Below are positions 1,131-12,296 of a stretch of 21,728 nt of DNA, piece by piece. The notes beneath the pieces were generated by a model. It saw nothing but the letters and a program-made list of their open reading frames with translations, was not told where the DNA came from and did no database searches. The stretch's first letter is position 1; the number at the start of each line of letters is the position of its first letter. The stretch is taken from positions 1 through 21,728 of the IMG/VR virus record IMGVR_UViG_3300009185_000123, one strand, 5' to 3'. The stretch is from a virus. Made by a program: the position numbers and the translations under genes.

Positions 1131-1718
1131 TCAGGTTAATTTCCGACGGACTTTTGAATTTGGTCGAGAGTCTGAAACCTTTTTGCCTAACTGATTAAAT
1201 CTTGACTGCACGTCTGATTTTAGGTTCATATACTTCTTATCATTTGCCAATCCACGATATTCTTCCATTTCAGTATCTGAAGGAGCTTCGCCGTATTCAA
1301 CTGTACCGTCTACTACTTGATTAAAAAGGTCAGGTAAAGGTAAAGTGATAGGTAACTCAGGAATATCAAGTTTATCATGAATACGAATTCCATAAGTTCC
1401 ATAAGTTGCATCGTACATTGCATGAACAGTATATTCACGAGCTGCTAAATCAACACTTATATCAAAATAGGTTTCATCATCCCTAGTTAATTCAGTTTGG
1501 ATTTGATTAAGTACGTGATCAATCATTGCATTATCTACTTCTCCATCGAAATCTTCCATTCTAGCTTCCGTATCTGCATCAGCAGCAAGCTCATCACGTT
1601 GAGCATCAGATAAATATCCAAAATTTCGAATTGGTTGAACTCCTTTAAGTTTAGCACGTTTAGAACCCATTGATTCATTTACAAATTGCCCAAATCTTTT
1701 AACTATTTGATTTTTCAT
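1131..1718 (-). CDS. Capsid-tagged acidic protein of unknown function
   Basis: 195 residues. I recognise no family. The N-terminus, MKNQIVKRFGQFVNE followed by Ser, is basic and amphipathic and ends in VNE. This matches the form of T4 capsid-targeting peptides, which are cleaved after (I/L)xE by the prohead protease. The rest is acidic in the first half (residues 38-80 rich in Asp/Glu) and has a basic C-terminal tail (SKVRRKLT). The tag and about 20 bases of A-rich leader (AAAAAAGAATTAA) are nearly identical to those of the next gene upstream, so the two genes share a duplicated 5' end joined to different bodies. The start was chosen because the tag begins there. It is likely packaged cargo. 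Confidence 0.72.
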   Translation of the reverse strand: MKNQIVKRFGQFVNESMGSKRAKLKGVQPIRNFGYLSDAQRDELAADADTEARMEDFDGEVDNAMIDHVLNQIQTELTRDDETYFDISVDLAAREYTVHAMYDATYGTYGIRIHDKLDIPELPITLPLPDLFNQVVDGTVEYGEAPSDTEMEEYRGLANDKKYMNLKSDVQSRFNQLGKKVSDSRPNSKVRRKLT

Positions 1719-1733
1719 TAGGTTAATTCTTTT

Positions 1734-2198
1734 TTAATAATGTTGTTTAGCGTACATAGTTAATATCTTTGTTATGTGTTCTGGACTAGTACCGCGATGA
1801 GTATCACTAGATGAAACGGTTTGAGCTAGTTCATCTATTGTCATGCTACCGTCATTCACAAACTCATCAACTATCTCTGCTGCGAGCTGGCTTCCAGGGG
1901 TAAAGTATTCGTCTTCTAAAATATGTAATAGCTTTTTTGGATTGTTACGGTAGTATGTTGGAATCCCTAACTGAGAGCCATGGTCAACATTCTTTTCTCT
2001 TGAATTTTTAGTACGCATTGCAATTTTTTTAAAGTGATCTTTATCGTCATCAGTCAACTTATTAAACTCTGATTCAAAATCAACTGGTTCTGTGTGTTTA
2101 CCTGTCATGCGGTTATGGGCAGTCCTTAATAAATTATGAACTGGATTATCTCCTTCGTTTATAAATTGTGTAAATCTTTTAACTATTTGCTTTTTCAT
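1734..2198 (-). CDS. Capsid-tagged protein of unknown function
   Basis: 154 residues from the ATG at 2198. The frame is open further up to 2267, but the internal start is preferred because it gives MKKQIVKRFTQFINE followed by Gly, almost the same tag as the gene at 1131-1718. It also has the same A-rich leader (AAAAAAAGAATTAA) just before it. INE fits the (I/L)xE prohead-protease site, so the mature protein would begin GDNPVHNLL. The body is mixed charged and helical, with a C-terminal part (EIVDEFVNDGSMTIDELAQ) that looks like a small helical bundle. I see no catalytic motif. A GATAAATA box lies about 27 bases upstream. Confidence 0.7.
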   Translation of the reverse strand: MKKQIVKRFTQFINEGDNPVHNLLRTAHNRMTGKHTEPVDFESEFNKLTDDDKDHFKKIAMRTKNSREKNVDHGSQLGIPTYYRNNPKKLLHILEDEYFTPGSQLAAEIVDEFVNDGSMTIDELAQTVSSSDTHRGTSPEHITKILTMYAKQHY

Positions 2199-2224
2199 TA
2201 GTTTAATTCTTTTTTTAATAATGT

Positions 2225-2232
2225 TATTTATC
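2225..2232 (-). promoter_or_regulatory. T4-late-like promoter box, candidate
   Basis: The minus strand reads GATAAATA, one base from the T4 late promoter consensus TATAAATA, 27 bases upstream of the chosen ATG at 2198. Similar boxes precede other tagged genes (10135-10142, 12297-12304). AT-rich DNA makes such matches common, so this is only suggestive. Confidence 0.3.
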
Positions 2233-2269
2233 TGGGTATTCAGGTCAGAACTTAAAATATTGTGCATAT

Positions 2270-3250
2270 TTAGCTAAAGTAGATATTTCCATTAACCGTA
2301 CAGTTATTCTGTTTAAGTTTTTGGTTAAAAATATTGTGAATTGACTTAAACAGCATACTATTAGTCGGTCCGGCCGCCGCAGCTTCACGATGTATATTAT
2401 TAATAATTGTAGATCTTGACACATCAAGGTCTCCACCTACTACTAAATTTTTTGGTAGTGTAGTAATGGTACTGCCATCTAACATTAAACTGCCGCTTAT
2501 TGATAAATTATCTGGAAGAGCGGTAATGTGTCTGCAACTGGTTAATTTTAAATCTCCAACTACTGATAAGTTTTCTGGTAATTTTTCTATAGCTGAATTT
2601 GATAAAAAAATTGATCTTTTAAATTTTGAATTTTCAGGTAACTCTTTAATTATACTTCCATTTGCTGTAAATATACCGTTTACTGTTAAATTATTTGGTA
2701 ACTCTTTAATTTTTGAATATGATATTGTTAATGCTCCACGTACAGAAAGATTATCAGGTAAACTTTCTAAACTAGTTCCGTATAACTCTAGATTAAACTG
2801 ACTATTATTTGGTTCAATATAATTTTTTACACGTTTTGCATCATGCAATAAATTTTTAAACTGATCGACTGTATAGCTATCAACTACACCGATACTATTT
2901 AAGTGTATTAGTTCTTCAATATCAAAATTTATTGGATTCCAAGTATCCGCATTTTCAAAAATCTTTTCACTATCATTAATATAATCAGAAGAGAGTGTTT
3001 CTATTTCAGGATTCTTTTTAAATACTTCGCAAACTTCTTTTAAAATAGAGGTCACAGTTGAGTATGGATCAATTATTCTATTATCAATAAGTTTTTCAAC
3101 TTTTTTAAATAACTCATCTGGTATTCGTAAGCGTTTAAGTGCTCTAAGAAATAATTTGAGTTTAACTGAATGTAACTTAATCATTTCATTTAACTGATCT
3201 GTATTTTTTATTGGATCTTTCCAACTTTCATATAGTTTAATATACTTCAT
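2270..3250 (-). CDS. Divergent capsid-tagged LRR protein with an extra helical domain
   Basis: 326 residues, modular. Residues 1-10 are the tag MKYIKLYESW, identical to the next paralog. Residues 11-100 are a helical, Lys/Glu-rich insert found in no other member here. Residues 104-146 (TWNP ... IGVVDSYTVDQF) correspond to the helical domain that directly follows the tag in the other paralogs. About six LRR units follow (residues 163-285; ELPNNLTVNG, KLPENLSVVG, TLPKNLVVGG). They lack the GCT of the other genes, having Ser or Ile at the position of the conserved Cys. The C-terminus is unrelated to the usual QIYR end and contains an Ala run. This is the oldest-looking or fastest-evolving member of the cluster. 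Its role is probably the same as its neighbours. Confidence 0.8.
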   Translation of the reverse strand: MKYIKLYESWKDPIKNTDQLNEMIKLHSVKLKLFLRALKRLRIPDELFKKVEKLIDNRIIDPYSTVTSILKEVCEVFKKNPEIETLSSDYINDSEKIFENADTWNPINFDIEELIHLNSIGVVDSYTVDQFKNLLHDAKRVKNYIEPNNSQFNLELYGTSLESLPDNLSVRGALTISYSKIKELPNNLTVNGIFTANGSIIKELPENSKFKRSIFLSNSAIEKLPENLSVVGDLKLTSCRHITALPDNLSISGSLMLDGSTITTLPKNLVVGGDLDVSRSTIINNIHREAAAAGPTNSMLFKSIHNIFNQKLKQNNCTVNGNIYFS

Positions 3251-3255
3251 ATCAT

Positions 3256-3888
3256 TTATCTACAAATTTTGCCGTCTACCGATAAATCCTGAGGTAACTC
3301 GCCTAAGCTGGTACAATTATATAAGACTAATTCTCCACCAACCGTTAGGCCAGCAGGTAAACTCTTTAGGGACCTACAACCATGTAGGCTTAAGCTGCCA
3401 TTAACCTTTAATCCAGCAGGTAAACTCTTTAATCCGGCACAGCCATATAGGCTTAAGTTTCCGGCAACATTTAAGCCGGCAGGTAAACTCTCTAAACTAA
3501 AGCAGTTAGATAAGTCTAAGCTTCCGCTAATTTTTAATCCAGCAGGTAAACTCTCTAAGCTGGTACAAGCATATAATTGTAAGCTTCCTCCAACCACTAG
3601 GTCATCCGGTAAACTCTTTAAGCCCGTACAGTACTCTAAGTTTAAGTTTTCTCTAACCACTAACCCATTAGGTAAACTCGTCAAAAGGGCACATCCACCT
3701 AGGTTTAAGGATTCACCTTCGCACCAACCTTTAATATAGTTAATAATACGCTGTTCAGCATCCCTAAGTTTCTTTAGATCGGCTAATTCTTTATCTGAAA
3801 CTACTCCTATCTCATGAAGCCCTTGAGCCTCAGCAAAGGTATCGGCTGTTATAGGGTTCCATGATTCATATAGTTTAATATACTTCAT
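3256..3888 (-). CDS. Capsid-tagged LRR protein, 7 repeats
   Basis: 210 residues: tag MKYIKLYE|SWNP (LYE fits the (L/I)xE cleavage rule), helical domain at about 12-50 (AQGLHEIGVVSDKELADLKK), then seven LRR units from residue 71 to the end, the last one a 14-residue cap ending in DGKICR. The linker before the repeats (IKGWCEGES) differs from the YxGVG of most siblings. The Cys in the GCT position is kept in most units (YCT, ACT, NCF, GCA, GCR, NCT), so a Cys ladder along the solenoid is expected. The gene is separated from the divergent paralog downstream by 5 bases. A binding or effector function is inferred from the LRR fold; the target is unknown. Confidence 0.85.
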   Translation of the reverse strand: MKYIKLYESWNPITADTFAEAQGLHEIGVVSDKELADLKKLRDAEQRIINYIKGWCEGESLNLGGCALLTSLPNGLVVRENLNLEYCTGLKSLPDDLVVGGSLQLYACTSLESLPAGLKISGSLDLSNCFSLESLPAGLNVAGNLSLYGCAGLKSLPAGLKVNGSLSLHGCRSLKSLPAGLTVGGELVLYNCTSLGELPQDLSVDGKICR

Positions 3889-3893
3889 ATCAT

Positions 3894-4640
3894 TTATCTA
3901 TAAATTTGACCTACTACGTTTAGGTCCTGCGGTAACTCGCCTAGGGCAGTACAGCCGTGTAAGTCTAAGTATCCGCGAACTTCTAGATCCGCAGGTAAAC
4001 TCTTTAAACTCGTACAGCCCGTTAAGGATAGAACGCCGCCGATCTTTAAGCCAGCTGGTAAACTCTCTAGGTCAGTACAGTTATTTAAATTTAAGGTTGA
4101 ATTAACTGTTAACCCAGCCGGTAAACGAGTTAGGGACGTACAGCCACTTGCGTGTATGGAGCCTCCAACCTTTAAACCTTGAGGTAACTCGCCTAATTTG
4201 GTACAGCCATTTAAATTTAAGTATGATCCAACCACTAGGTCATTAGGTAAACTCTCTAAGTTTGTACAAAAATTTAGTTCTAAGCCTCCGCTAATCACTA
4301 GACCAGCGGGTAGACTCCTTAAATTGGTACAACCGTTTGCGTATAGGTAGTCTTTGACCTTTAATCCAGCAGGTAAACTCTCTAAACTTGTACAACCATA
4401 TAAGCCTAAGTTTCCGCCAACCTTTAAGCCATCCGGTAAACTCTTTAGCAAGGTACAGTCCCGTAAGTCTAGGCTCCCAACTCCAGAGTAGTGGAGAATC
4501 TCCCACTCAGTCGCCATAAGTTTCTCTAGCTGGGCTAATTCCTGGTCAGAAACAATTCCTATTGAGTGTAGTTCTTGAGCCTCAGCAAAGGCCTCGTCTG
4601 ACATGGGGTTCCAGTTTTCGTATAGTTTAAGATACTTCAT
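3894..4640 (-). CDS. Capsid-tagged LRR protein, 9 repeats
   Basis: 248 residues: tag MKYLKLYE|NWNP, helical domain to about residue 50 (AQELHSIGIVSDQELAQLEK), YSGVGSLDLRDCTLLK as N-cap, then nine units from residue 67, ending ELPQDLNVVGQIYR. An ELPQGL unit lies in the middle (unit 5). That sequence is otherwise typical of the C-terminal cap, so the protein may have arisen by joining a 5-unit and a 4-unit gene. This is the first of the LRR genes after the lysozyme in transcription order, 21 bases downstream of its stop codon. Confidence 0.85.
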   Translation of the reverse strand: MKYLKLYENWNPMSDEAFAEAQELHSIGIVSDQELAQLEKLMATEWEILHYSGVGSLDLRDCTLLKSLPDGLKVGGNLGLYGCTSLESLPAGLKVKDYLYANGCTNLRSLPAGLVISGGLELNFCTNLESLPNDLVVGSYLNLNGCTKLGELPQGLKVGGSIHASGCTSLTRLPAGLTVNSTLNLNNCTDLESLPAGLKIGGVLSLTGCTSLKSLPADLEVRGYLDLHGCTALGELPQDLNVVGQIYR

Positions 4641-4661
4641 TAGGGTTATTTATTCAGAATA

Positions 4662-5507
4662 TTATGCCGATTTAATTATTTGAGATAGGGTATTTGCTCT
4701 ATTTTTAACTTGACCAGCCCATTCAGAGTCCAACATTTCGGTTGAGGCCTTTTTATAATTATTGGATAAAATATACTTTAGAAAATTATTAAATTTAGAT
4801 AAGCCGGCCTTTCCTAAATTAAATACCATTTCAGTTAAAACACCCTGTACTGATAATGGTAGTTTTGGCCAAACTGTTGAAATATTTACCGAACGGTCTT
4901 GTGATATTAAGGTCTGTGCATCGTTTTTTGCCTGGATTAAATCATTGTTTAATAGAGTAGATATTTGAGCATCAGTAAGCTTGGCTTTTCCAGCTTTAAT
5001 TTTAACCGGATTTGCTCCAACACTTTTAAGTAGTACACTTGAATCTTCTCGGTTTAGGTTAAAGCCAACTCCAATCGTTGGATTTTTTTTAGTATCTAAA
5101 TACTTAATATATTTTTTACCTTCATGCTGAATTACCCGGTCTTTAATTGAACTAACCACCTGGTCAGTAGACGGTGGTGGAGCAACAAATGTCCCTAAGC
5201 TGTTTTGAACCTGGATATTAGCAATATGATTATCAATTTGAGTTTTATAGCTTTGGTCAAAAATACCAAGTTCACCATTAATTGCATCGCCGACACTCGC
5301 ATAGGCCCAATCTTTAGTTTTAAAGCCTGAGTTTAAAGCCTGATTTACCTTATTCATTGTTAATACATCAGGTATTGATAAAATGGCCTTTGCTAAGTTA
5401 GGTTCGGTTGTTCCAAGACCAGCACAGGCAACCTGAATTTCATTTGCTATTTGATCAGAGGTTAAGGCCTCATTGATCCAACCTTCAAATACTTGTAAAT
5501 ACTTCAT
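4662..5507 (-). CDS. Capsid-tagged T4-type lysozyme (GH24 muramidase)
   Basis: 281 residues. Residues 1-13, MKYLQVFEGWINE, are the tag (INE cleavage site). Residues 17-98 contain ACAGLGTTEPNLAKAI and later DAINGEL, which look like an annexin-type helical repeat, a weak resemblance. After a Pro-rich linker (109-112) comes a complete GH24 domain (about 118-281). Catalytic Glu129 is in QHEG, Asp138 in YLDT and Thr144 in PTIGVGF. The spacings of 9 and 6 residues match E11/D20/T26 of T4 lysozyme. It would cleave the N-acetylmuramic acid to N-acetylglucosamine bond of peptidoglycan. There is no signal peptide or holin next to it. The tag and the position among cargo genes suggest a virion-carried enzyme acting at entry, though a lysis role is not excluded. 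Confidence 0.88.
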   Translation of the reverse strand: MKYLQVFEGWINEALTSDQIANEIQVACAGLGTTEPNLAKAILSIPDVLTMNKVNQALNSGFKTKDWAYASVGDAINGELGIFDQSYKTQIDNHIANIQVQNSLGTFVAPPPSTDQVVSSIKDRVIQHEGKKYIKYLDTKKNPTIGVGFNLNREDSSVLLKSVGANPVKIKAGKAKLTDAQISTLLNNDLIQAKNDAQTLISQDRSVNISTVWPKLPLSVQGVLTEMVFNLGKAGLSKFNNFLKYILSNNYKKASTEMLDSEWAGQVKNRANTLSQIIKSA

Positions 5508-5512
5508 ATCAG

Positions 5513-6253
5513 TTATCTATAAATTTTGCCGCCAATCTTTAAGCCGGCAGGTAAACTCTCTAGGCCAAGGCAACCACCTAAGGTTAAGTCGCCATCAACA
5601 ACTAGATCAGCAGGTAGACTCTTTAAGCCCGTACACCGATTTAGGCTTAAGGTTCCACCGACCTTTAAGCCAGCTGGTAAACTCTTTAGCTGATAACAGT
5701 CAGTTAAGTATAAGTTTCCTCCAACCTCTAGACCAGCAGGTAAACTCTCTAAACTCGTACAGCCTCTTAAGTCATCGCCAACCACTAAGCCAGCCGGTAA
5801 ACTCGTTAAGCCCGTGCAGTTTGCTAAGTCTAATTGGCCACCAACCACCAGGCCAGCAGGTAAACTCGTTAAGGAAGAGCAGCCGAATAAAGTTAAGTCA
5901 TCTTCAACCTTTAAGTCAGCCGGTAAACTCGTTAAGCTTGTACAGCCAGTTAGGTCTAAGTAGTCTCCAACAACTAGGCCAGCCGGTAAACTCCTTAAGC
6001 CAGTACAGTAATTTAGGTCTAAGAAGCCATCGACCTTTAAGCCAGCCGGTAAACCCGTTAATAAGGCACAGAAACTAAGATCTAAGTTGCCAAATCCTTT
6101 AAAATTAAGTATTTGGTGTTGAGCCTGCTTTAAACTAACCAAGTCCTCTAATTCCTGACTTGAAACAACTCCTATTTGGTGCAGTTCCTGAGCTGACTCT
6201 AACTCTTGATCAGACAGAGGGTTCCATGATTCATATAGTTGCAGATACTTCAT
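5513..6253 (-). CDS. Capsid-tagged LRR protein, 9 repeats
   Basis: 246 residues: tag MKYLQLYE|SWNP, helical domain to about 50 (AQELHQIGVVSSQELEDLVS), then nine LRR units from residue 67. The fifth unit (SLPAGLVVGDDLRGCTSLE) is two residues short, lacking the usual second x-L pair before the GC. This would shorten one turn of the solenoid. The last unit is SLPAGLKIGGKIYR instead of the usual ELPQDL cap. The gene starts 5 bases after the stop codon of the fused paralog upstream and ends 5 bases before the lysozyme start. An A/T-rich TATAAATA string overlaps the previous gene's final codons. Confidence 0.85.
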   Translation of the reverse strand: MKYLQLYESWNPLSDQELESAQELHQIGVVSSQELEDLVSLKQAQHQILNFKGFGNLDLSFCALLTGLPAGLKVDGFLDLNYCTGLRSLPAGLVVGDYLDLTGCTSLTSLPADLKVEDDLTLFGCSSLTSLPAGLVVGGQLDLANCTGLTSLPAGLVVGDDLRGCTSLESLPAGLEVGGNLYLTDCYQLKSLPAGLKVGGTLSLNRCTGLKSLPADLVVDGDLTLGGCLGLESLPAGLKIGGKIYR

Positions 6254-6258
6254 TAAGG

Positions 6259-7311
6259 TTATTTATAAATTTTGGCTCCAACCTTTAGGTCCTCGGGTAA
6301 CTCGGCTAAGCTTGGACACGATCGTATGTATAGACTTGCAGAAACCTCTAGACCAGCAGGTAAACTCTTTAGTGAGGTACAGCAGTCGAGGTCTAAGTTG
6401 CCGTCGACCTTGAATCCAACCGGCAAACTTTCTAGGGCCGTACAGCCTTCTAAGTAGACTCCGCTTTCGACCTTTAAGTCAGCCGGTAAACTCTTTATAC
6501 CGGTACAGCCTTCCATGTCAAGTTGACCGCCAACCACTAGGCCAGCAGGTAGACTCTCCAAGCCCGTACACCTTTTTATGTCTAGACCTCCGCCAATCTT
6601 TAAGCCATCAGGTAAACTCCTTAAGCCCGTACAGCCCCTTAAGTCTAATTCTCCCAGCACCTCTAAATCTGCCGGTATACTCTCTAAGCTCGTACAGCCA
6701 TTTAGCTCTAATCGGCCATTGATCTTTAAGCCAGCAGGTAAACTCTTTAGTAGAGTACAGTAGTCTAGGATTAGGCTGCCAACCCCGTTATATTTAATAA
6801 TACGCTGTTCAGCATCTCTAAGGATCTTTAGCTCGGCTAATTCCTGGCTTGACACAACTCCTATTTGGTGCAGCTCCTGAGCACTGGCAAGATCCTCAAC
6901 GGATACTGTGTTCCAATTTTCATATAGTTTCGGCCCGCCTATTATTCGGCCGGCTACCTTTAGGTCTTGAGGTAAACTCTTTAAACCAGTACAGCCGTAT
7001 AAGTATAGGTCACCGCCAACCTCTAGGCCAGCCGGTAAACTCTTTAAACCCGTACAGGCAGTTAAGCCTAAATTTGCTCCAACTTTTAGGCCCTGAGGTA
7101 AACCAGTTAACAGAATAGTGTAACTTAAGTTTAGGTCCCCAACTCCTTTATAGTCGAGTATCCGTTTTGAACTGATTTTTAAATCATTTAGATCGGCTAA
7201 TTCCTGATCAGAAATAACCCCTATCTTGTGCAGTTTCCTAGTCTCAGCAAAGTCCTTATCAGATAGAGGGTTCCAGTCCTCAAATTTTTCGAATAGTTTA
7301 ATATACTTCAT
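6259..7311 (-). CDS. Fused double LRR protein, 3 + 8 repeats
   Basis: 350 residues, twice built. The first half has the tag MKYIKLFEKFEDWNP, the helical domain (LHKIGVISDQELADL) and only three LRR units (70-127) ending VAGRIIGGP. Immediately after, at residue 128, KLYENWNTVS begins a second copy of the tag end and helical domain (LHQIGVVSSQELAEL), then eight more units to the end (ELPEDLKVGAKIYK). The junction lies where every other gene has QIYR, stop, spacer, ATG. Here stop and start are lost and the frame runs through, so this is a natural gene fusion after deletion. The internal KLYE could still be a prohead-protease site (LYE) and would then release two proteins. Confidence 0.87.
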   Translation of the reverse strand: MKYIKLFEKFEDWNPLSDKDFAETRKLHKIGVISDQELADLNDLKISSKRILDYKGVGDLNLSYTILLTGLPQGLKVGANLGLTACTGLKSLPAGLEVGGDLYLYGCTGLKSLPQDLKVAGRIIGGPKLYENWNTVSVEDLASAQELHQIGVVSSQELAELKILRDAEQRIIKYNGVGSLILDYCTLLKSLPAGLKINGRLELNGCTSLESIPADLEVLGELDLRGCTGLRSLPDGLKIGGGLDIKRCTGLESLPAGLVVGGQLDMEGCTGIKSLPADLKVESGVYLEGCTALESLPVGFKVDGNLDLDCCTSLKSLPAGLEVSASLYIRSCPSLAELPEDLKVGAKIYK

Positions 7312-7316
7312 ATCAT

Positions 7317-8063
7317 TTATCTATAAATTTGGCCGCCTACTTTTAGGTCCTGTGGTAAACTCTCTAGGCGGGTACCACCCAAGAGTAAGTCTCTTTTAAC
7401 CACTAGCCCAGCCGGCAAACTTGTTAAGCCGGTACAACCATATAAGTCTAAGTTTCCGCCAACCTTTAGGCCAGCAGGTAAACTCCTTAAACCTGTGCAG
7501 TTTGCTAAGGTTAGGTTGCCAACCGCTATGTCAGCCGGTACACTCTCTAAGCGGGTACAGCCATCTAGGCTTAAGGTGTTGCCAACCTCTAGGCCAGCAG
7601 ATAAATTCTTTAGGCTGGTACAGCCGTATAGGCTTAAGTTTCGGTCAACGATTAATCCAGTAGGTAAACTCTCTAGGGACGTACAGCCAATTAAGGTTAA
7701 GTCTCTGACCCTTAAGTTAGCCGGTATACTGGTTAGGGCCGTACAGCCACCTAATGCTAAGTATCCAATAACCTGTAGATCAGCAGGTAGACTCCTTAAG
7801 CCTGTACACTTATTTAGGTTTAACATGCCGTTAACCTTTAAGCCAGCCGGTAAACTCTTTAGTAGAGTACAGCTGTCTAGGTTTAGGTTGCCAACTCCAG
7901 GGTATTGAAGAATTTCCCGTTCAACATGCCTAAGTCTTCTGAGCTCGCTCAATTCCTTGTCGGACACAACTCCTATTTCATGAAGATCCTGAACATCTGA
8001 ATAGGCCTCATCGGATACTGTTTTCCAGTCTTCAAATTTTTCATATAGTTTAATATACTTCAT
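7317..8063 (-). CDS. Capsid-tagged LRR protein, 9 repeats
   Basis: 248 residues: tag and linker MKYIKLYEKFEDWKTVS (with the extra KFED seen in two siblings), helical domain (VQDLHEIGVVSDKELSELRR), PGVGNLNLDSCTLLK cap, then nine units from residue 70. Three units are 20 rather than 21 residues long (SIPANL..., SVPADI..., SLPAGLVV...), and one has NLSAGL in place of SLPAGL. The repeats are therefore somewhat decayed, but the frame is intact. It ends SLPQDLKVGGQIYR. The stop codon is 5 bases before the next paralog's start, with the family's usual spacer. Confidence 0.85.
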   Translation of the reverse strand: MKYIKLYEKFEDWKTVSDEAYSDVQDLHEIGVVSDKELSELRRLRHVEREILQYPGVGNLNLDSCTLLKSLPAGLKVNGMLNLNKCTGLRSLPADLQVIGYLALGGCTALTSIPANLRVRDLTLIGCTSLESLPTGLIVDRNLSLYGCTSLKNLSAGLEVGNTLSLDGCTRLESVPADIAVGNLTLANCTGLRSLPAGLKVGGNLDLYGCTGLTSLPAGLVVKRDLLLGGTRLESLPQDLKVGGQIYR

Positions 8064-8068
8064 ATACT

Positions 8069-8572
8069 TTATCTATAAATTCTACGGCCGACCTTTATGT
8101 CTTGAGGTAACTCGCCTAAGCTCGTACAGCGGAATAGGTTTAAGTCGCCGTCAACCACTAGCCCAGCCGGTAAACTTGTTAGCGAGGTACACCCGTTTAA
8201 GAATAGGTCTCTGCCAACGATTAAGCCCTGAGGTAGACTCTTTAAGCGGGTACAGCCATATAGGCTTAAGCTGCCGCTAACAGTTAACTCATCAGGTAAA
8301 CTCTCTAAGCTGTTACACCAATTTAGGTTTAAGTCTCCGCCAACCTCTAGGCCAGCCGGTAAACTTTTTAGCAGGGTGGAGTCAGCTAGGTCTAGGCTGC
8401 CAACTCCAGAGTAGTGCAGAATCGCTTGTTCAGCCCTCATCAGTCTCTTTATCTCTCTAAATTCCTGATCTGAAACGACTCCTATTCCATGAAGCTCCTG
8501 AGCACTGGCAAGGTCCTCAACCGATACGGTTTTCCAGTCCTCAAATTTTTCATATAGTTTAATGTATTTCAT
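8069..8572 (-). CDS. Capsid-tagged LRR protein, 5 repeats (shortest)
   Basis: 167 residues: MKYIKLYEKFEDWKTVS tag/linker, helical domain (VEDLASAQELHGIGVVSDQEF), HYSGVGSLDLADSTLLK cap and only five units from residue 70, ending ELPQDIKVGRRIYR. The stretch EDLASAQELH also occurs in the second half of the fused gene at 6259-7311, suggesting recent exchange between them. This is the minimal member, useful for defining the core architecture: tag, helical domain, first-strand cap, repeats and C-cap. Confidence 0.85.
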   Translation of the reverse strand: MKYIKLYEKFEDWKTVSVEDLASAQELHGIGVVSDQEFREIKRLMRAEQAILHYSGVGSLDLADSTLLKSLPAGLEVGGDLNLNWCNSLESLPDELTVSGSLSLYGCTRLKSLPQGLIVGRDLFLNGCTSLTSLPAGLVVDGDLNLFRCTSLGELPQDIKVGRRIYR

Positions 8573-8579
8573 TATCTTT

Positions 8580-9158
8580 CTATCTTAAAATTTGGCCGCC
8601 TACCCTTAGGTCTTGAGGTAACTCGGCTAGGGAGGTACAGTCTCTTAAATTTAAGTCGCCCATAACCACTAGTCCAGCAGGTAAACTCGTTAGTGAGGTA
8701 CAGCCGCCTAGCGATAAAAAGCCTAACACTTTTAACCCAGCCGGTAGACTCCTTAAGCCCGTACACCCGTTTGCATAAAAGTCTCCCATCACTTTGAATC
8801 CAGCAGGTAAACTCCTTAAGCCTGTGCAGTCAACAATATTTAAACCTCCTCCAGGTTTTAAACCAGCAGGTAAACTCTCTAATCCAGTACAGCCGCTTAG
8901 AGTTAAGTAGCCAGTAACGGTTAAGTCGGCAGGTAAATGTGTTAGACCCGTGCAGCCTCTTAAATTAGCGGACCCATTAACCTTTAATCCAGCGGGTAAA
9001 CTCTTTAGCAGGGTACAGCCATCTAAGTTTAAGAAGCTCGACCCGAATTCAACACAGTTACGAAGTTGTTCCTCAGCCGCTTTTAGTTTTTTAAGCTCTG
9101 CACCTTCCACAGCTTCGGTAATTAAGTTAAATGAACGATATGGGGTTAGGTACTTCAT
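8580..9158 (-). CDS. Capsid-tagged LRR protein with a different N-terminus, 7 repeats
   Basis: 192 residues. The N-terminus MKYLTPYRSFNLITE|A is closer to the non-LRR tagged proteins (ITE cleavage site). It lacks the LHxIGVVS helical domain, keeping only a short ELKKLKAAEEQLRN segment that aligns with its end. SFLNLDGCTLLK starts the solenoid, and seven units follow from residue 53 to an ELPQDLRVGGQILR cap. It is the first LRR gene after 9163-10116 in transcription order, 4 bases downstream, so it is probably in the same operon. The missing domain suggests that the tag and the repeats are interchangeable modules. Confidence 0.85.
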   Translation of the reverse strand: MKYLTPYRSFNLITEAVEGAELKKLKAAEEQLRNCVEFGSSFLNLDGCTLLKSLPAGLKVNGSANLRGCTGLTHLPADLTVTGYLTLSGCTGLESLPAGLKPGGGLNIVDCTGLRSLPAGFKVMGDFYANGCTGLRSLPAGLKVLGFLSLGGCTSLTSLPAGLVVMGDLNLRDCTSLAELPQDLRVGGQILR

Positions 9159-9162
9159 GGTT

Positions 9163-10116
9163 TTAAAAAGAATAACTACGATTTACCATAACGTTTTCTT
9201 CAGCAACCGGATCATATATAGAAAATTCAATTTTACCACCATGATAAAGTTGATAATCGACGTTATAAGTTGGATTAATTTCTTTTACTTTTATGTCTGC
9301 CACAAACGCAACATTATTTAAATACTCTCGAGGCTCTTCTTCAGGAATAAAAGAGTCTGCAGCCTGTGACCATGCATCGCTTAATATTTCGTCAAATGTA
9401 TCTTCAGAAATATCAAGATTTTCTTTTAATAGCCTACGATATCTGCGTGATACAGTTTCGGTTACTGAGTCTGTAAGTAATGGGCTGGTTGGGTCTACTA
9501 TAAAATAAAAGCCGGCAGCCGCAAACTCGCCGCGGTTCATTGGTATTTCGGTACCATCAATACTCGCTCCACCTGGAAATAGTGTAATTAGGCTAAGTGC
9601 CTTTTTGCCATTGGTTAGTGTACCTAGTTCAGCAGTAATTAAATTTACTCGGCTGGTTGGTTTTCTTTTACCTGGGGCTATTTTAACAGCCTCTTTTCTT
9701 CCATCGGGCATTGTGTAATCCTGCATCATAGCTACTTCCTCTGGCCCGGCCTTTGCTACACCCATTTCTCCAACCTTACCGCCATTAGCGGCTAACCATT
9801 TTACTCGGCCACTGGCCTCTTCGGTTGGTGGAGTATTAAGTAATTTTTTAGCAACCTGTCTAAGGTCTACACCGGTTTTGAATAATGAACCTGGTTTTGC
9901 CCCATCTAAGTGTCTTTCCGCAATATGACCGGCTGTCTCTTCAGAAAAAAGTAGGACAAAATTATCTGCTTCAATTAGGTCTGACCCGGTTGCTTTTACT
10001 TTACCTTTTAAAAATTCATTTTTGTCTATTAGAGCCTGGATCTCTTGTGAAATATCTGCGGCTTCAGTATGTGATTCATTGATATATTGACTAAACAATT
10101 TAATATGTTTCGGCAT
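9163..10116 (-). CDS. Capsid-tagged protein, possible injected effector
   Basis: 317 residues, no family assigned. Tag MPKHIKLFSQYINE|S at residues 1-14 (INE site). Residues 52-150 contain FVLLFSEETAGHIAERHLDG, then a Lys/Gly-rich middle and RVNLITAELGTL. The order (a strand, HIxxRH, then strands with VNLIT and LSLITLFPG) vaguely resembles BECR-type nuclease toxins found in phages, but this is a pattern guess and no active site is proven. The C-terminal third is acidic, with many aromatic residues. It heads the minus-strand LRR group; a GATAAATA box lies 19-26 bases upstream. Its left neighbour is an LRR gene. On its right is the divergent GC-rich island. Confidence 0.7.
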   Translation of the reverse strand: MPKHIKLFSQYINESHTEAADISQEIQALIDKNEFLKGKVKATGSDLIEADNFVLLFSEETAGHIAERHLDGAKPGSLFKTGVDLRQVAKKLLNTPPTEEASGRVKWLAANGGKVGEMGVAKAGPEEVAMMQDYTMPDGRKEAVKIAPGKRKPTSRVNLITAELGTLTNGKKALSLITLFPGGASIDGTEIPMNRGEFAAAGFYFIVDPTSPLLTDSVTETVSRRYRRLLKENLDISEDTFDEILSDAWSQAADSFIPEEEPREYLNNVAFVADIKVKEINPTYNVDYQLYHGGKIEFSIYDPVAEENVMVNRSYSF

Positions 10117-10344
10117 GGGTTCTTATTTTTTTATTATTTATCTTCTTTATTGCCCAGGTTCTGGCTCTTTTTGTGCACATAAACACAGGTGCGCGCCTAC
10201 CCTTACAATATAAAATATACCTAAACTATACACTATACCAGGTCTACCTATCAGAAAAAAAAAGAAATATACCAGGCTACCTAGCCAGGTACCAGACCCT
10301 CAACCCTATTCAAGATACCCGTCTACACTAGCCTGCAGACCGGG
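10117..10344. other. Intergenic DNA between divergent genes, compositional transition
   Basis: No gene seen. This stretch separates the minus-strand start at 10116 from the 58-bp array. It passes from AT-rich phage-like DNA to GC-rich island DNA. It contains GGTACC- and CCAGG-rich stretches and two runs of A/T (near 10205-10245 and 10252-10270) that could hold promoters for the plus-strand gene, but no clear consensus is visible. Confidence 0.5.
10135..10142 (-). promoter_or_regulatory. T4-late-like promoter box, candidate
   Basis: The minus strand reads GATAAATA, 19-26 bases upstream of the ATG at 10116. The position suits a late promoter with a short leader. Only the -10-type box can be judged, as T4 late promoters have no -35. 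Confidence 0.35.
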
Positions 10345-10586
10345 ACTAGGGAGTACCTGGTACCTGTATAGAACAGACTCTAACCGGACCCGGCCCAGTG
10401 GGACTAGGGAGTCCCGGCCAGCCCGGACCAGCCGGCCCAGGAGCAATCTGCCCAGGTGGGACTAGGGAGTAAACCGGACCCTTGCCCCGGCCACCGGACC
10501 CCAACCTGACCAGGTGGGACTAGGGAGTACCCCGGCCGGGCTCTGTCCTGTGGGTACCAACCCGGCTTGCTCAAAGACTAGGGAGT
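10345..10586 (+). repeat. Five ACTAGGGAGT copies at exact 58-bp spacing
   Basis: ACTAGGGAGT starts at 10345, 10403, 10461, 10519 and 10577, so all four intervals are exactly 58. The 48-base segments between copies are GC-rich and differ from one another, apart from a short shared left flank. Copies 3 and 4 extend to CCAGGTGGGACTAGGGAGT, copy 2 is one base shorter in that flank and copy 1 has CCGGG. All array copies have G before ACTAG, whereas the dispersed copies have T. The array ends 140 bases before the recombinase-like gene and points the same way. It is probably a multi-site binding or regulatory platform. The repeats are far too short for a CRISPR. Confidence 0.85.
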
Positions 10587-10726
10587 ACGGTGGCCCTCGA
10601 CTCCGCGGCTCTACCGGATTCCCAGGGGTCTCGAGGGTTCCCGGCAGTTGGACACTAGTAGCAGGCTGCGGGACACGGGCAGGCCAGGCTTCCCGACAGG
10701 TAGCCGAGGCCCAGATAGATAAAACC

Positions 10727-11362
10727 ATGGAAGAAGAAGAAATAGGGTCCCTGAAGCCTTTTCCGTCAGGGGAGTTGATGTATAAGAAGGATGCAGCCAA
10801 GTTTGCTGGGGTCTCGTTGAAGACACTGGAGGGTTATGTAGCTAAGGGTGTAATAAACAAGTGGAAGAATATTGTAAACGGCCGGACCTACTATGACAAG
10901 CAGGAGCTCTTGAAGATGATAGGCAGTCGCTTGCCGCAGAAGAGGCTCGTGATCGCCTACTGCCGGGCAGCACCGTTCCCGGATCGAGGAGCGGCCGGGG
11001 TTTCGGTACTGGCCAGGTTACAGGCACAGACGGACCGGGTACTCGGATATTGTACCGCAGCTGGGGTCCGGGTTGACGAGATAATCCAAGATACGGGTAA
11101 GGCTGGTAGCCTAGCTGGCCGATCAGGTCTCGATAGGCTCTTTGAGACCGTGCTTCGCAAGCAGGTAAGTATGGTTATAGTTGAGACTCCGGACCGGCTG
11201 GCCAGGTTTGCAGGTGCCGAGATTCTAGAGAGATTCCTGACCTGGCACGGTGTTGAACTGCATATAATACAGAAAGGATTACATCTAGAAGAGTACAGGG
11301 AAGAATTAAAAGAGGATCTATCTTATCTTATATTAGAGTCAAGAGCCCTGATTGGGGATTAA
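10727..11362 (+). CDS. IS607-TnpA-like HTH/serine-recombinase protein lacking the catalytic serine
   Basis: 211 residues from ATG 10727 (A-rich AAAACC leader); an alternative ATG at 10778 gives MYKKDAAKFAGVS and 194 residues, closer to the family's usual start. The frame is also open through the array, but that extension looks non-coding. Domain 1 is a MerR-like HTH (AKFAGVSLKTLEGYVAKGVI, then NGRTYYDKQEL). Domain 2 is a resolvase fold: RLVIAYCRAAPF, GVSVLARLQAQ, DTGKAGSLAGRSGLDRLF, ETPDRLARFAG and GVELHII. Where the family has Y-A-R-V-S, this protein has Y-C-R-A-A, so the nucleophilic Ser is missing. The Arg of AGRSGL and the DRLARF motif remain. There is no TnpB partner. It is the only plus-strand gene here and GC-rich, so it was probably acquired. 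It may act as a DNA-binding protein for the adjacent array (inference). Confidence 0.85.
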   Translation: MEEEEIGSLKPFPSGELMYKKDAAKFAGVSLKTLEGYVAKGVINKWKNIVNGRTYYDKQELLKMIGSRLPQKRLVIAYCRAAPFPDRGAAGVSVLARLQAQTDRVLGYCTAAGVRVDEIIQDTGKAGSLAGRSGLDRLFETVLRKQVSMVIVETPDRLARFAGAEILERFLTWHGVELHIIQKGLHLEEYREELKEDLSYLILESRALIGD

Positions 11363-11388
11363 CCGGATTTAGGAAATATTCTTTTTAT

Positions 11389-11841
11389 TTATAAAAATTT
11401 CAAACATTTAACTTTACCGTCAGTCGTTGTGTATATTACAAAGTTTACACCATTACCATCATAAAATCCAATACTCGGACTTTCAGGATTATAATTATTA
11501 TCAGCTGGAGTTTTCTGTATTTCCGCAAACATATTTTTTGCAGTCTCACTAATAATGTCACCCGCTACCATAAATTGTGAGTTAATTATACCTGGAACGC
11601 CAGTACAATCCCATACATAATTAACACCATTAAACGTACCTCCAAAACTGGAGGCGTTATAGTTTCCCTTAAATTGTTCGGATGACATCATTGCAGGTGT
11701 TACATTTTTTATTCCCTCAGATGCAACTTTATTTATAATAGGTTTTATATTTTGGTTTACGGCCTGGTCGGTTGGCTCCGCTGGCATGATAGCAGCTTCA
11801 AATCCTTCATTCACAAACTGTTCAAATAATTTTAATTTCAT
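11389..11841 (-). CDS. Capsid-tagged protein of unknown function
   Basis: 150 residues. Tag MKLKLFEQFVNE|GF (VNE site). A linker rich in Ala/Pro (AAIMPAEPTDQAV) is followed by a single compact domain with many Gly, Asn and aromatic residues (ASSFGGTFNGVNYVWDCTG, SIGFYDGNGVNFVIYTTTDG), predicted mostly beta. I recognise no family or active site. It converges on the recombinase-like gene (26-base gap), so it belongs to the minus-strand cargo series that the island interrupts. The stop codon of the protease gene upstream lies 21 bases away, with a T-rich spacer. Confidence 0.7.
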   Translation of the reverse strand: MKLKLFEQFVNEGFEAAIMPAEPTDQAVNQNIKPIINKVASEGIKNVTPAMMSSEQFKGNYNASSFGGTFNGVNYVWDCTGVPGIINSQFMVAGDIISETAKNMFAEIQKTPADNNYNPESPSIGFYDGNGVNFVIYTTTDGKVKCLKFL

Positions 11842-11862
11842 TTCTATATTTGTTTTTTTTAT

Positions 11863-12240
11863 TTATTTTTGGAAAATTTGTGGATTTAACCGGCCGTACT
11901 CTCTGAGTATTACGGCAGCCTGACTGTTAGCCTCGTTCTCAATTGTAGATCCATCTGCTCCATCCAGTGTCTGTCCACTGTCGCGCTGGGCATGGTGTAC
12001 CAATTCATGAGCCAAGGTTCGGTACCAGTCTGCTGTTAAACGATCACCTCGCAAGACCCTGATCTCTCCGGTACGGGGATTAAATGCTCCCATTGACTTT
12101 ACGGACTCGGCCTCGGCATGGTCATCAGTTACAATAATAACTGGTTTAGATGTCCACTGTAGTTTACTCCAGCAAAATTGACAAAACTGTTCAACTTCTG
12201 TTGTTGCCTGCCACTCACTTGACTCCTTGATATATTTCAT
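11863..12240 (-). CDS. Small HExxH zinc metalloprotease-like protein
   Basis: 125 residues. The motif AHELVHHAQ gives H78-E79-L80-V81-H82, the zinc-binding and catalytic motif of gluzincin-type peptidases. ENEAN at 101-105 offers Glu101 or Glu103 as third zinc ligand. Upstream, GAFNPRTGEIRVLRGD (strands) and WYRTLAHE (active-site helix) follow the order of minimal zincins such as SprT or ImmA-like domains, but I cannot assign it to either. The N-terminus MKYIKESSEW resembles the LRR tag MKYIKLYESW, though without a clear (I/L)xE site, so packaging is less certain. A protein substrate is unknown; host target cleavage or virion processing are both possible. Confidence 0.75.
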   Translation of the reverse strand: MKYIKESSEWQATTEVEQFCQFCWSKLQWTSKPVIIVTDDHAEAESVKSMGAFNPRTGEIRVLRGDRLTADWYRTLAHELVHHAQRDSGQTLDGADGSTIENEANSQAAVILREYGRLNPQIFQK

Positions 12241-12296
12241 ATAGATTAAATATTTAGCGTGCCACCTGGCTGACGTCTGCTGTAACTTATTTATGT

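Follow-up and report, generated by a model that had tools for sequence, protein, structure and literature searches.

Why do adjacent genes for dissimilar proteins begin alike? The question is raised by positions 1131-12240 of IMG/VR virus record IMGVR_UViG_3300009185_000123, where 14 open reading frames (ORFs) lie on the minus strand and where a first-pass annotation had noticed an N-terminal tag reminiscent of the capsid-targeting sequence (CTS) of the T4 internal proteins (IPs). The window, i.e., the whole stretch of DNA analyzed, is the complete record of 21,728 bases and represents a piece of an uncultured jumbo phage from freshwater, a T4 relative. Five of the 14 ORFs (those of 195, 154, 317 and 150 amino acids (aa) and a lysozyme gene) exhibited the exact core [FY]xx[FWY][ILVM]xE. 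By position and spacing these five genes belong to the CTS class; cleavage, packaging and injection of their products are predictions from the sequence. We consider it probable (about 0.82) that the phage possesses a T4-type injected-cargo system, which is expanded and modular, and that the window is one cargo locus of it.

The ORFs of the cluster are given below; "aromatic pair" means two aromatic residues three positions apart. The frame of 154 aa was taken to start at an internal Met of a 177-aa ORF.

1131-1718, minus strand: putative tagged cargo ORF, 195 aa, MKNQIVKRFGQFVNES, body unassigned; exact core; leader and tag DNA common to the 154-aa gene; no Pfam or PHROG match at E 0.1
1734-2198, minus strand: putative tagged cargo ORF, 154 aa, MKKQIVKRFTQFINEG, body unassigned; exact core
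2270-3250, minus strand: LRR1, 326 aa, divergent leucine-rich repeat (LRR) protein, MKYIKLYESW; aromatic pair only; partial match to LRR3 at 35% identity
3256-3888, minus strand: LRR2, 210 aa, MKYIKLYESWNPIT; aromatic pair only; LRR paralogue
3894-4640, minus strand: LRR3, 248 aa, MKYLKLYENWNPMS; aromatic pair only; LRR_EndoS E 4e-6, just under the cut-off
4662-5507, minus strand: tagged lysozyme, T4-type, 281 aa, MKYLQVFEGWINEA; exact core; Phage_lysozyme PF00959 E 1.7e-6
5513-6253, minus strand: LRR4, 246 aa, MKYLQLYESWNPLS; aromatic pair only; LRR paralogue
6259-7311, minus strand: LRR5, 350 aa, two LRR proteins fused head to tail, giving two separate paralogue matches; aromatic pair only; LRR_EndoS E 1.2e-8
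7317-8063, minus strand: LRR6, 248 aa, MKYIKLYEKFEDW; aromatic pair only; LRR paralogue
8069-8572, minus strand: LRR7, 167 aa, MKYIKLYEKFEDW; aromatic pair only; LRR paralogue
8580-9158, minus strand: LRR8, 192 aa, MKYLTPYRSFNLITEA; core with two extra residues (SFNLITE); LRR paralogue
9163-10116, minus strand: putative tagged cargo ORF, 317 aa, MPKHIKLFSQYINES, body unassigned; exact core; no Pfam or PHROG match at E 0.1
11389-11841, minus strand: putative tagged cargo ORF, 150 aa, MKLKLFEQFVNEG, body unassigned; exact core; no Pfam or PHROG match at E 0.1
11863-12240, minus strand: putative zinc metallopeptidase, 125 aa, MKYIKESSEW; tag core absent; DUF6782 E 0.0017, below the cut-off

The earlier count of thirteen or fourteen tagged proteins turned out to be too high. 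Apart from the five exact cores, LRR8 showed a core spaced by two residues, LRR1 to LRR7 only the aromatic pair, and the metallopeptidase neither. A cleavage motif right after the second aromatic residue (I8 and E10 in T4) was found at this place in five of the 14 ORFs, displaced in one and absent in eight. Three of the five exact cores end in VNE or INE, while the sole [ILVM]xE within the first 20 residues of LRR1 to LRR7 is the LYE or LFE ending at residue 8. The aromatic pair (Y4 and F7 in T4) was shared by 13 of the 14 ORFs, which by itself is weak evidence. As a tag in its own right the pair was rejected, since it was also present in 6-15% of untagged N-termini and in 8-11% of internal windows of six genomes. 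Thus, the LRR members rest on their paralogy and on the beginning MKY(I/L)xx(Y/F)E, which they share with the lysozyme, and not on the core. As the eight LRR genes constitute one paralogous family, the window harbors at most six independent tagged bodies and not thirteen; the bodies outside this family were indeed dissimilar. LRR5 (6259-7311) also contains a second, internal tag remnant (KLYENWN) and looks like a duplication caught midway. The 31 window ORFs of at least 70 aa include five with the exact core, compared with 0.07 on average and never more than 1 when the ORFs were shuffled 200 times. Beyond position 12,290, the exact core was missing from the first 25 residues of all 19 minus-strand ORFs listed.

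The same cluster is present in record G001 (110,950 bp), whose lysozyme, LRR3 and 317-aa ORF are 100% identical to those of the window. Since the window is contained in G001, the tag counts of the two are not independent. G001 is colinear with parts of G009 (253 kb) and G008 (271 kb), in which 71 and 62, respectively, of its 136 called ORFs have homologues. For a genome-wide survey, exact cores starting in the first 25 residues were counted and compared with internal windows of 25 aa. ORFs were called mechanically as the longest frames of 60 aa or more, with a minimum of 75 aa for the enrichment count, so that the denominators contain some false ORFs. The core was enriched at the N-termini of G001 (8/120 vs 3/883 internally), G004 (8/113 vs 13/1041), G008 (18/292 vs 22/2330) and G009 (21/281 vs 21/2286), and likewise in the first 398 kb of the huge phages LR756501 (34/450 vs 26/3326) and LR756500 (21/479 vs 25/3529), with p-values per genome from 5e-4 to 5e-17. 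The enrichment was confined to the first 25-aa bin. No enrichment was detected in the control phages T4 (3/222), PTm1 (2/267), pT24 (1/268), Lak-C1 (159 kb; 1/135), SP-15 (219 kb; 1/274), 121Q (179 kb; 0/288) and UPM 2146 (159 kb; 2/189). As to the search of the remaining genome that the first-pass annotation had proposed, the tag proved to be genome-wide in this lineage. Its idea of a cargo locus stood insofar as the window is one tagged locus; the tag is not special to it.

The spacing was also determined de novo by scanning 64 spacings of two aromatic residues and a Glu, so that the pattern was not built into the answer. In the freshwater genomes the arrangement [FYW], +3 [FYW], +6 E ranked first of the 64 (75/806 vs 162/6540, p 1.6e-18; runner-up p 1.5e-6), and the same spacing ranked first in the huge phages (93/1226 vs 207/8477, p 1.5e-17; runner-up 1.3e-6). 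In the seven pooled control phages the best of all 64 spacings reached p 0.26. Position +4 was occupied by I, L or V 57 times in the freshwater genomes and 62 times in the huge phages, every other residue being far rarer. In the CTS of T4 IPIII, which has been mapped experimentally, residues 4 and 7 mainly act in targeting, and residues 8 and 10 in processing (PMC9026906). The tag spacing (0, +3, +4, +6) equals Y4, F7, I8 and E10 of this sequence. On the T4 genome, two of the three pattern matches were the annotated ipII and ipIII. An alignment of 48 tagged huge-phage proteins revealed one invariant column, the tag Glu; because this set was chosen by the pattern, the column demonstrates only that nothing else is common to these proteins.

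The tag might instead direct proteins elsewhere, e.g., to the tail, the replication compartment or a host protein, or it might be an effect of composition at translation starts. Function cannot be read from such a motif directly, and AT-rich starts favor K, N, I, F and Y. A fixed Glu and a fixed spacing are not compositional, though, and were absent from the N-termini of the pooled controls. Furthermore, the tag coincides with the four functional positions of T4 IPIII, and its residues are kept between many diverged homologues. We regard this alternative as improbable.

The core was often retained between diverged homologues. One example is the lysozyme, whose tag was kept in the G004, G008 and G009 homologues at 55-65% identity (N-termini MKYLQVFEGWINEA, MKHLKIFESWVNES, MKHINLFESWLNEA and MKHINLFESWVNES). 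The G009 homologue of the 154-aa ORF (41% identity) begins with MKTQVKRFTEFLAEG; that of the metallopeptidase (69% identity) begins with MKYIKESREW. Homologue pairs were scored with a lenient core as tagged in both, in the first only or in the second only; these counts include some false calls, and some misses are due to wrong ORF starts. The values were 7/1/2 among 71 pairs of G001 and G009, 9/0/0 among 104 pairs of G004 and G008, 6/2/1 among 106 pairs of G004 and G009, and 16/8/3 among 214 pairs of G008 and G009, the last corresponding to both partners in 16 of the 27 pairs with any tag. Of the homologues of a NUDIX-type gene, the one in G008 has the exact tag and those in G001 and G009 keep only F-xx-F. 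In G009, a NUDIX-type gene and a ribosomal protein S21 gene adjoin each other (223867-224527).

The adjacent genes of the 195-aa and 154-aa ORFs gave DNA alignment scores of 25/30 upstream and 36/42 over the tag, the 99.5th percentiles of the null being 19 and 24, respectively. Beyond the tag, their bodies were at background (39.5/100). These genes thus share leader and tag DNA and not their bodies, indicating that the tag moves as a module. Two LR756500 genes with unrelated bodies scored 41/42 over the tag (null 27); upstream, their score of 16/30 was not above the null. The best gene pairs of G008 and G009 were weaker (30-32/42 over the tag). A likeness of the lysozyme upstream region to LRR genes was not counted, as that stretch is the end of an LRR gene. 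The similar N-termini could in principle stem from paralogues that diverged from one ancestor without selection on the tag. This applies to the eight LRR genes, one of which (LRR5) is a tandem fusion. For the non-LRR genes we consider paralogy as the source of the tag to be refuted, because their bodies are without similarity while leader and tag DNA are alike, and tags occur on lysozyme, NUDIX, VanY, AAA and LRR bodies. As a general explanation, common descent is very improbable.

A T4-type system also needs a processing enzyme. The gp21-like protease that the first-pass annotation had suggested to look for was present in the relatives G004, G008 and G009, not on the window or G001. The window contig stops short of the head module, and none was recognized on G001 either. 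Of four records searched, one, G004, gave a Pfam S77 match (E 5.3e-12), for a 662-aa protein encoded next to the major capsid protein; PHROG matches were head maturation protease for this protein (E 4.5e-35) and major head protein for its neighbor (E 7e-40). Relatives of the protease were found at 38 viral loci, including G008 and G009. Each of the 12 named phage records searched yielded an S77 match at E 0.01, and in eight of these records the match exceeded the cut-off. Two residues that we take to be catalytic, the His of GELDHP and the Ser of SSR, were invariant in 20 protease homologues. In G004, G008 and G009 the protease is fused to a scaffold, and the second half of the protein carries a 14-residue repeat. 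An AlphaFold model of this protein (20 close homologues; mean pLDDT 43.9), in which the repeats formed long helices at about 32-47, was not used. In the capsid proteins of the same three records, [IL]NE precedes an A or S close to the N-terminal region that corresponds to that of T4; these sites resemble the INE, VNE and LNE ends of tags. The nearest named records to the G004 capsid protein and protease are "uncultured phage" LR756500-504 and LR745206 (462-735 kb), followed, for the capsid protein, by Prevotella Lak phages and the Tenacibaculum phages PTm1 and pT24 (29-38% identity). The host of the window phage is probably a Bacteroidota.

The capsid-targeting idea was partly supported by the T4 spacing, the recurrence of the tag in relatives, its frequent retention in orthologues and the gp21-type protease of the relatives. 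According to the mechanism that we propose, a propeptide for capsid targeting of the T4 type, M-(K-rich)-[FY]xx[FWY][ILV]xE, would be encoded at the 5'-ends of the tagged genes. While the prohead assembles, the precursor would bind to the scaffold core through the aromatic pair. The S77 prohead protease, in relatives fused to the scaffold, would then cleave behind the tag Glu, so that the mature body is released within the head and can be injected with the DNA. The tag itself would be a recombining module joined to unrelated bodies, and the cluster one of several tagged places in this jumbo-phage lineage.

Several observations weigh against this reading. A Pfam S77 search of the window and G001 gave no match, so that the protease of the window phage is deduced from colinear relatives. 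In the tags of seven LRR proteins, [ILV]xE is missing from its proper place; these proteins would remain uncleaved, be cleaved within the docking site (at LYE) or fail to be targeted at all. The first 199 kb of LR756504 were weakly enriched (9/297 vs 21/1622, p 0.03), and G003 (22.8 kb) was uninformative with 1/38 (shuffle mean 0.12, maximum 2). Between G001 and G008, two of 62 pairs were tagged in both partners and six in one only (2/1/5). T4 IPI was not picked up, being either missed by the pattern or lost in ORF calling, and one of its three T4 hits falls outside the annotated internal proteins. Since the core also occurs in 0.2-1.3% of internal windows, an individual call may be spurious, as in the case of a RecA-like protein with MDAFAKF. 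In the literature searched, we found no virion proteomics of these phages.

The tandem 14-residue repeat of the scaffold (IxYSEYIAENLDKN-like) has the core pattern of the tag, if His is allowed as aromatic residue and Gln as Glu. Runs at exact 14-residue spacing comprised nine repeats in each of G004, G008 and G009, 12 in LR756501, 10 in LR756504 and 11 in LR756502 and LR745206. With the strict core, the scaffold accounted for 8/18, 8/29, 7/29 (in register) and 12/42 of the internal matches in G004, G008, G009 and LR756501, respectively. All five records that have a repeat run and were surveyed for tags are tagged, LR756504 weakly; LR756502 and LR745206 were outside the tag survey. The seven control phages showed neither tag enrichment nor, in the parts searched, a run of more than two (T4, PTm1, pT24, Lak-C1, SP-15, 121Q and UPM 2146). 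Repeat and tag therefore seem to go together, over perhaps two clades. The protease-scaffold of PTm1 (217778-219547, locus L097) has a different, Trp-rich repeat (EKWI/ENWL-like), and PTm1 might use another tag.

The tag may be a one-copy imitation of the scaffold repeat, the cargo posing as an extra repeat in the lattice and being released when the protease dices the scaffold. We regard this as rather doubtful. In LR756500 the repeats are decayed (run of 2), though the phage is well tagged. In a reverse test, a profile was made from scaffold repeats alone, and N-termini were counted among the top 30 proteins. The result was weak with a phage's own repeats, for G004 (6, p 0.02), G008 (6, p 0.04) and G009 (4, p 0.26) as well as for LR756501 (7, p 0.02) and LR756504 (6, p 0.17). 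The G008 repeats yielded three N-termini in G001 (p 0.5) and five in LR756500 (p 0.16). Among the controls, T4 (2), PTm1 (1), SP-15 (2), 121Q (4) and UPM 2146 (2) all gave p >0.6, and pT24 failed (8, p 0.004); Lak-C1 was left out. The likeness thus lies at the level of the core pattern and not of whole repeats. Moreover, the repeats are one event and not nine, and the chance of finding the core once in a 660-aa protein is estimated at about 1/4 (about 1% per 25-aa window).

Tag and repeats may also be alike only as substrates of one protease whose consensus includes aromatic residues, an explanation that we consider possible without favoring it. The scaffold repeats end in [ILV]xE, and the T4 gp23 stretch FGSFLTEA, the cleavage site, has an aromatic pair as well. 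In contrast, the presumed capsid sites GS[IL]NE of G004, G008 and G009 are devoid of the pair, and in T4, residues 4 and 7 act in targeting and only 8 and 10 in processing (PMC9026906). If the imitation of the scaffold repeat were true, it would suggest how a T4-type tag is recognized, a point that to our knowledge is still open.

Which bodies carry the tag was studied in the relatives by Pfam scans. In the freshwater relatives 20 of the 80 listed tagged ORFs were scanned; NUDIX (E 9e-15), VanY peptidase (1e-12) and AAA ATPase (6e-7) were over the cut-off, HAD, nucleotidyltransferase, M78 and other matches below it, and 11 of the 20 were without any Pfam match at E 0.01. In the huge phages 48 of the 59 listed proteins were scanned. 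Among the families listed (25 of 34), LRR families were matched by four proteins; single proteins matched PPK2, a metallopeptidase/VWA pair, radical SAM, methyltransferases and a PNK3P phosphatase. All four LR756500 ORFs passing a simple LRR pattern start with MKYI-xx-Y-xx-F, three of them with the exact core. The data indicate that LRR proteins are a recurring cargo in two distant lineages. With LRR3 as single query, relatives were obtained among viral contigs in G001 only, and none in 17 other compared records; the 317-aa ORF likewise had relatives only in G001. A single-sequence AlphaFold model of the latter (mean pLDDT 36.5) was discarded as unusable. Among the Pfam and PHROG matches of the window bodies there was no T4 internal protein; no direct comparison with IPs was made.

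Between the cargo genes, the opposite strand contains a repeat array and a recombinase gene:

10330-10595, plus strand: five near-palindromic GACTAGGGAGT motifs, four as GGGACTAGGGAGT, at exact 58-nt spacing
10727-11362, plus strand: serine recombinase with N-terminal helix-turn-helix (Resolvase E 3e-12; HTH_17 E 4e-5, below the cut-off)

The array is a stretch of 65% G+C (window 40%) between the 317-aa cargo gene and the recombinase, which by its architecture we take to be IS607-like. G008 and G009 have two and three GACTAGGGAGT copies (58- and 57-nt spacing) before a homologous recombinase. Further single copies lie close by, most of them in gaps between called ORFs, and all copies are on the plus strand. 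A recent insertion of the recombinase into the cluster was rejected, since its homologues in G008 and G009 adjoin the same metallopeptidase.

Which proteins of a giant phage accompany its DNA into the host is difficult to establish if the phage is uncultured, and the tag provides a list of candidates from sequence. This list comprises 18-34 N-terminal matches, a few of them by chance, in each of the four larger records (G008, G009, LR756500 and LR756501), two of which cover the first 398 kb of phage genomes that measure 462 kb and 735 kb. The T4 proteins Ip1-3 are injected inhibitors of GmrSD-type restriction (PMC12373910). Because the known T4 members are themselves injected restriction inhibitors, the tagged proteins are candidates for counter-defence in the first minute of infection, with LRR proteins as a recurring class. 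In the literature searched, which left many subscription papers and all bioRxiv preprints out of scope, there was no report of such tags in huge or freshwater phages.

Among known systems, the jumbo phages of freshwater Bacteroidetes that encode ribosomal protein S21 (bS21) are similar in having huge genomes from lakes and a head module of terminase, capsid, prohead protease and portal (PMC9723584). The relative G009 encodes bS21 too, though it is the only one of seven records tested to do so. In the accessible text on these phages no packaging tag is described, and the authors suggest that bS21 itself might be packaged (PMC9723584). Ejection proteins of the phiKZ/SPN3US type and the Dar proteins of P1 resemble the predicted cargo in being packaged into the head and processed by the prohead protease. 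They differ in that phiKZ processing occurs at S/A/G-X-E (PMC13282480) and in that the sources searched, as far as accessible, describe no short common aromatic tag of this spacing for them. Closest are T4 IPI, IPII and IPIII, which have two aromatic residues, I/L/V and Glu at the same spacing in their first 10-16 residues (PMC9026906), and which also combine unrelated bodies with an S77 protease. The difference is one of scale and content: the pattern finds ipII and ipIII in T4, compared with 8/120 ORFs in G001 and 18-34 matches per record in the four larger ones, the cargo here includes LRR proteins and enzymes, and protease and scaffold of the relatives are one fused protein.

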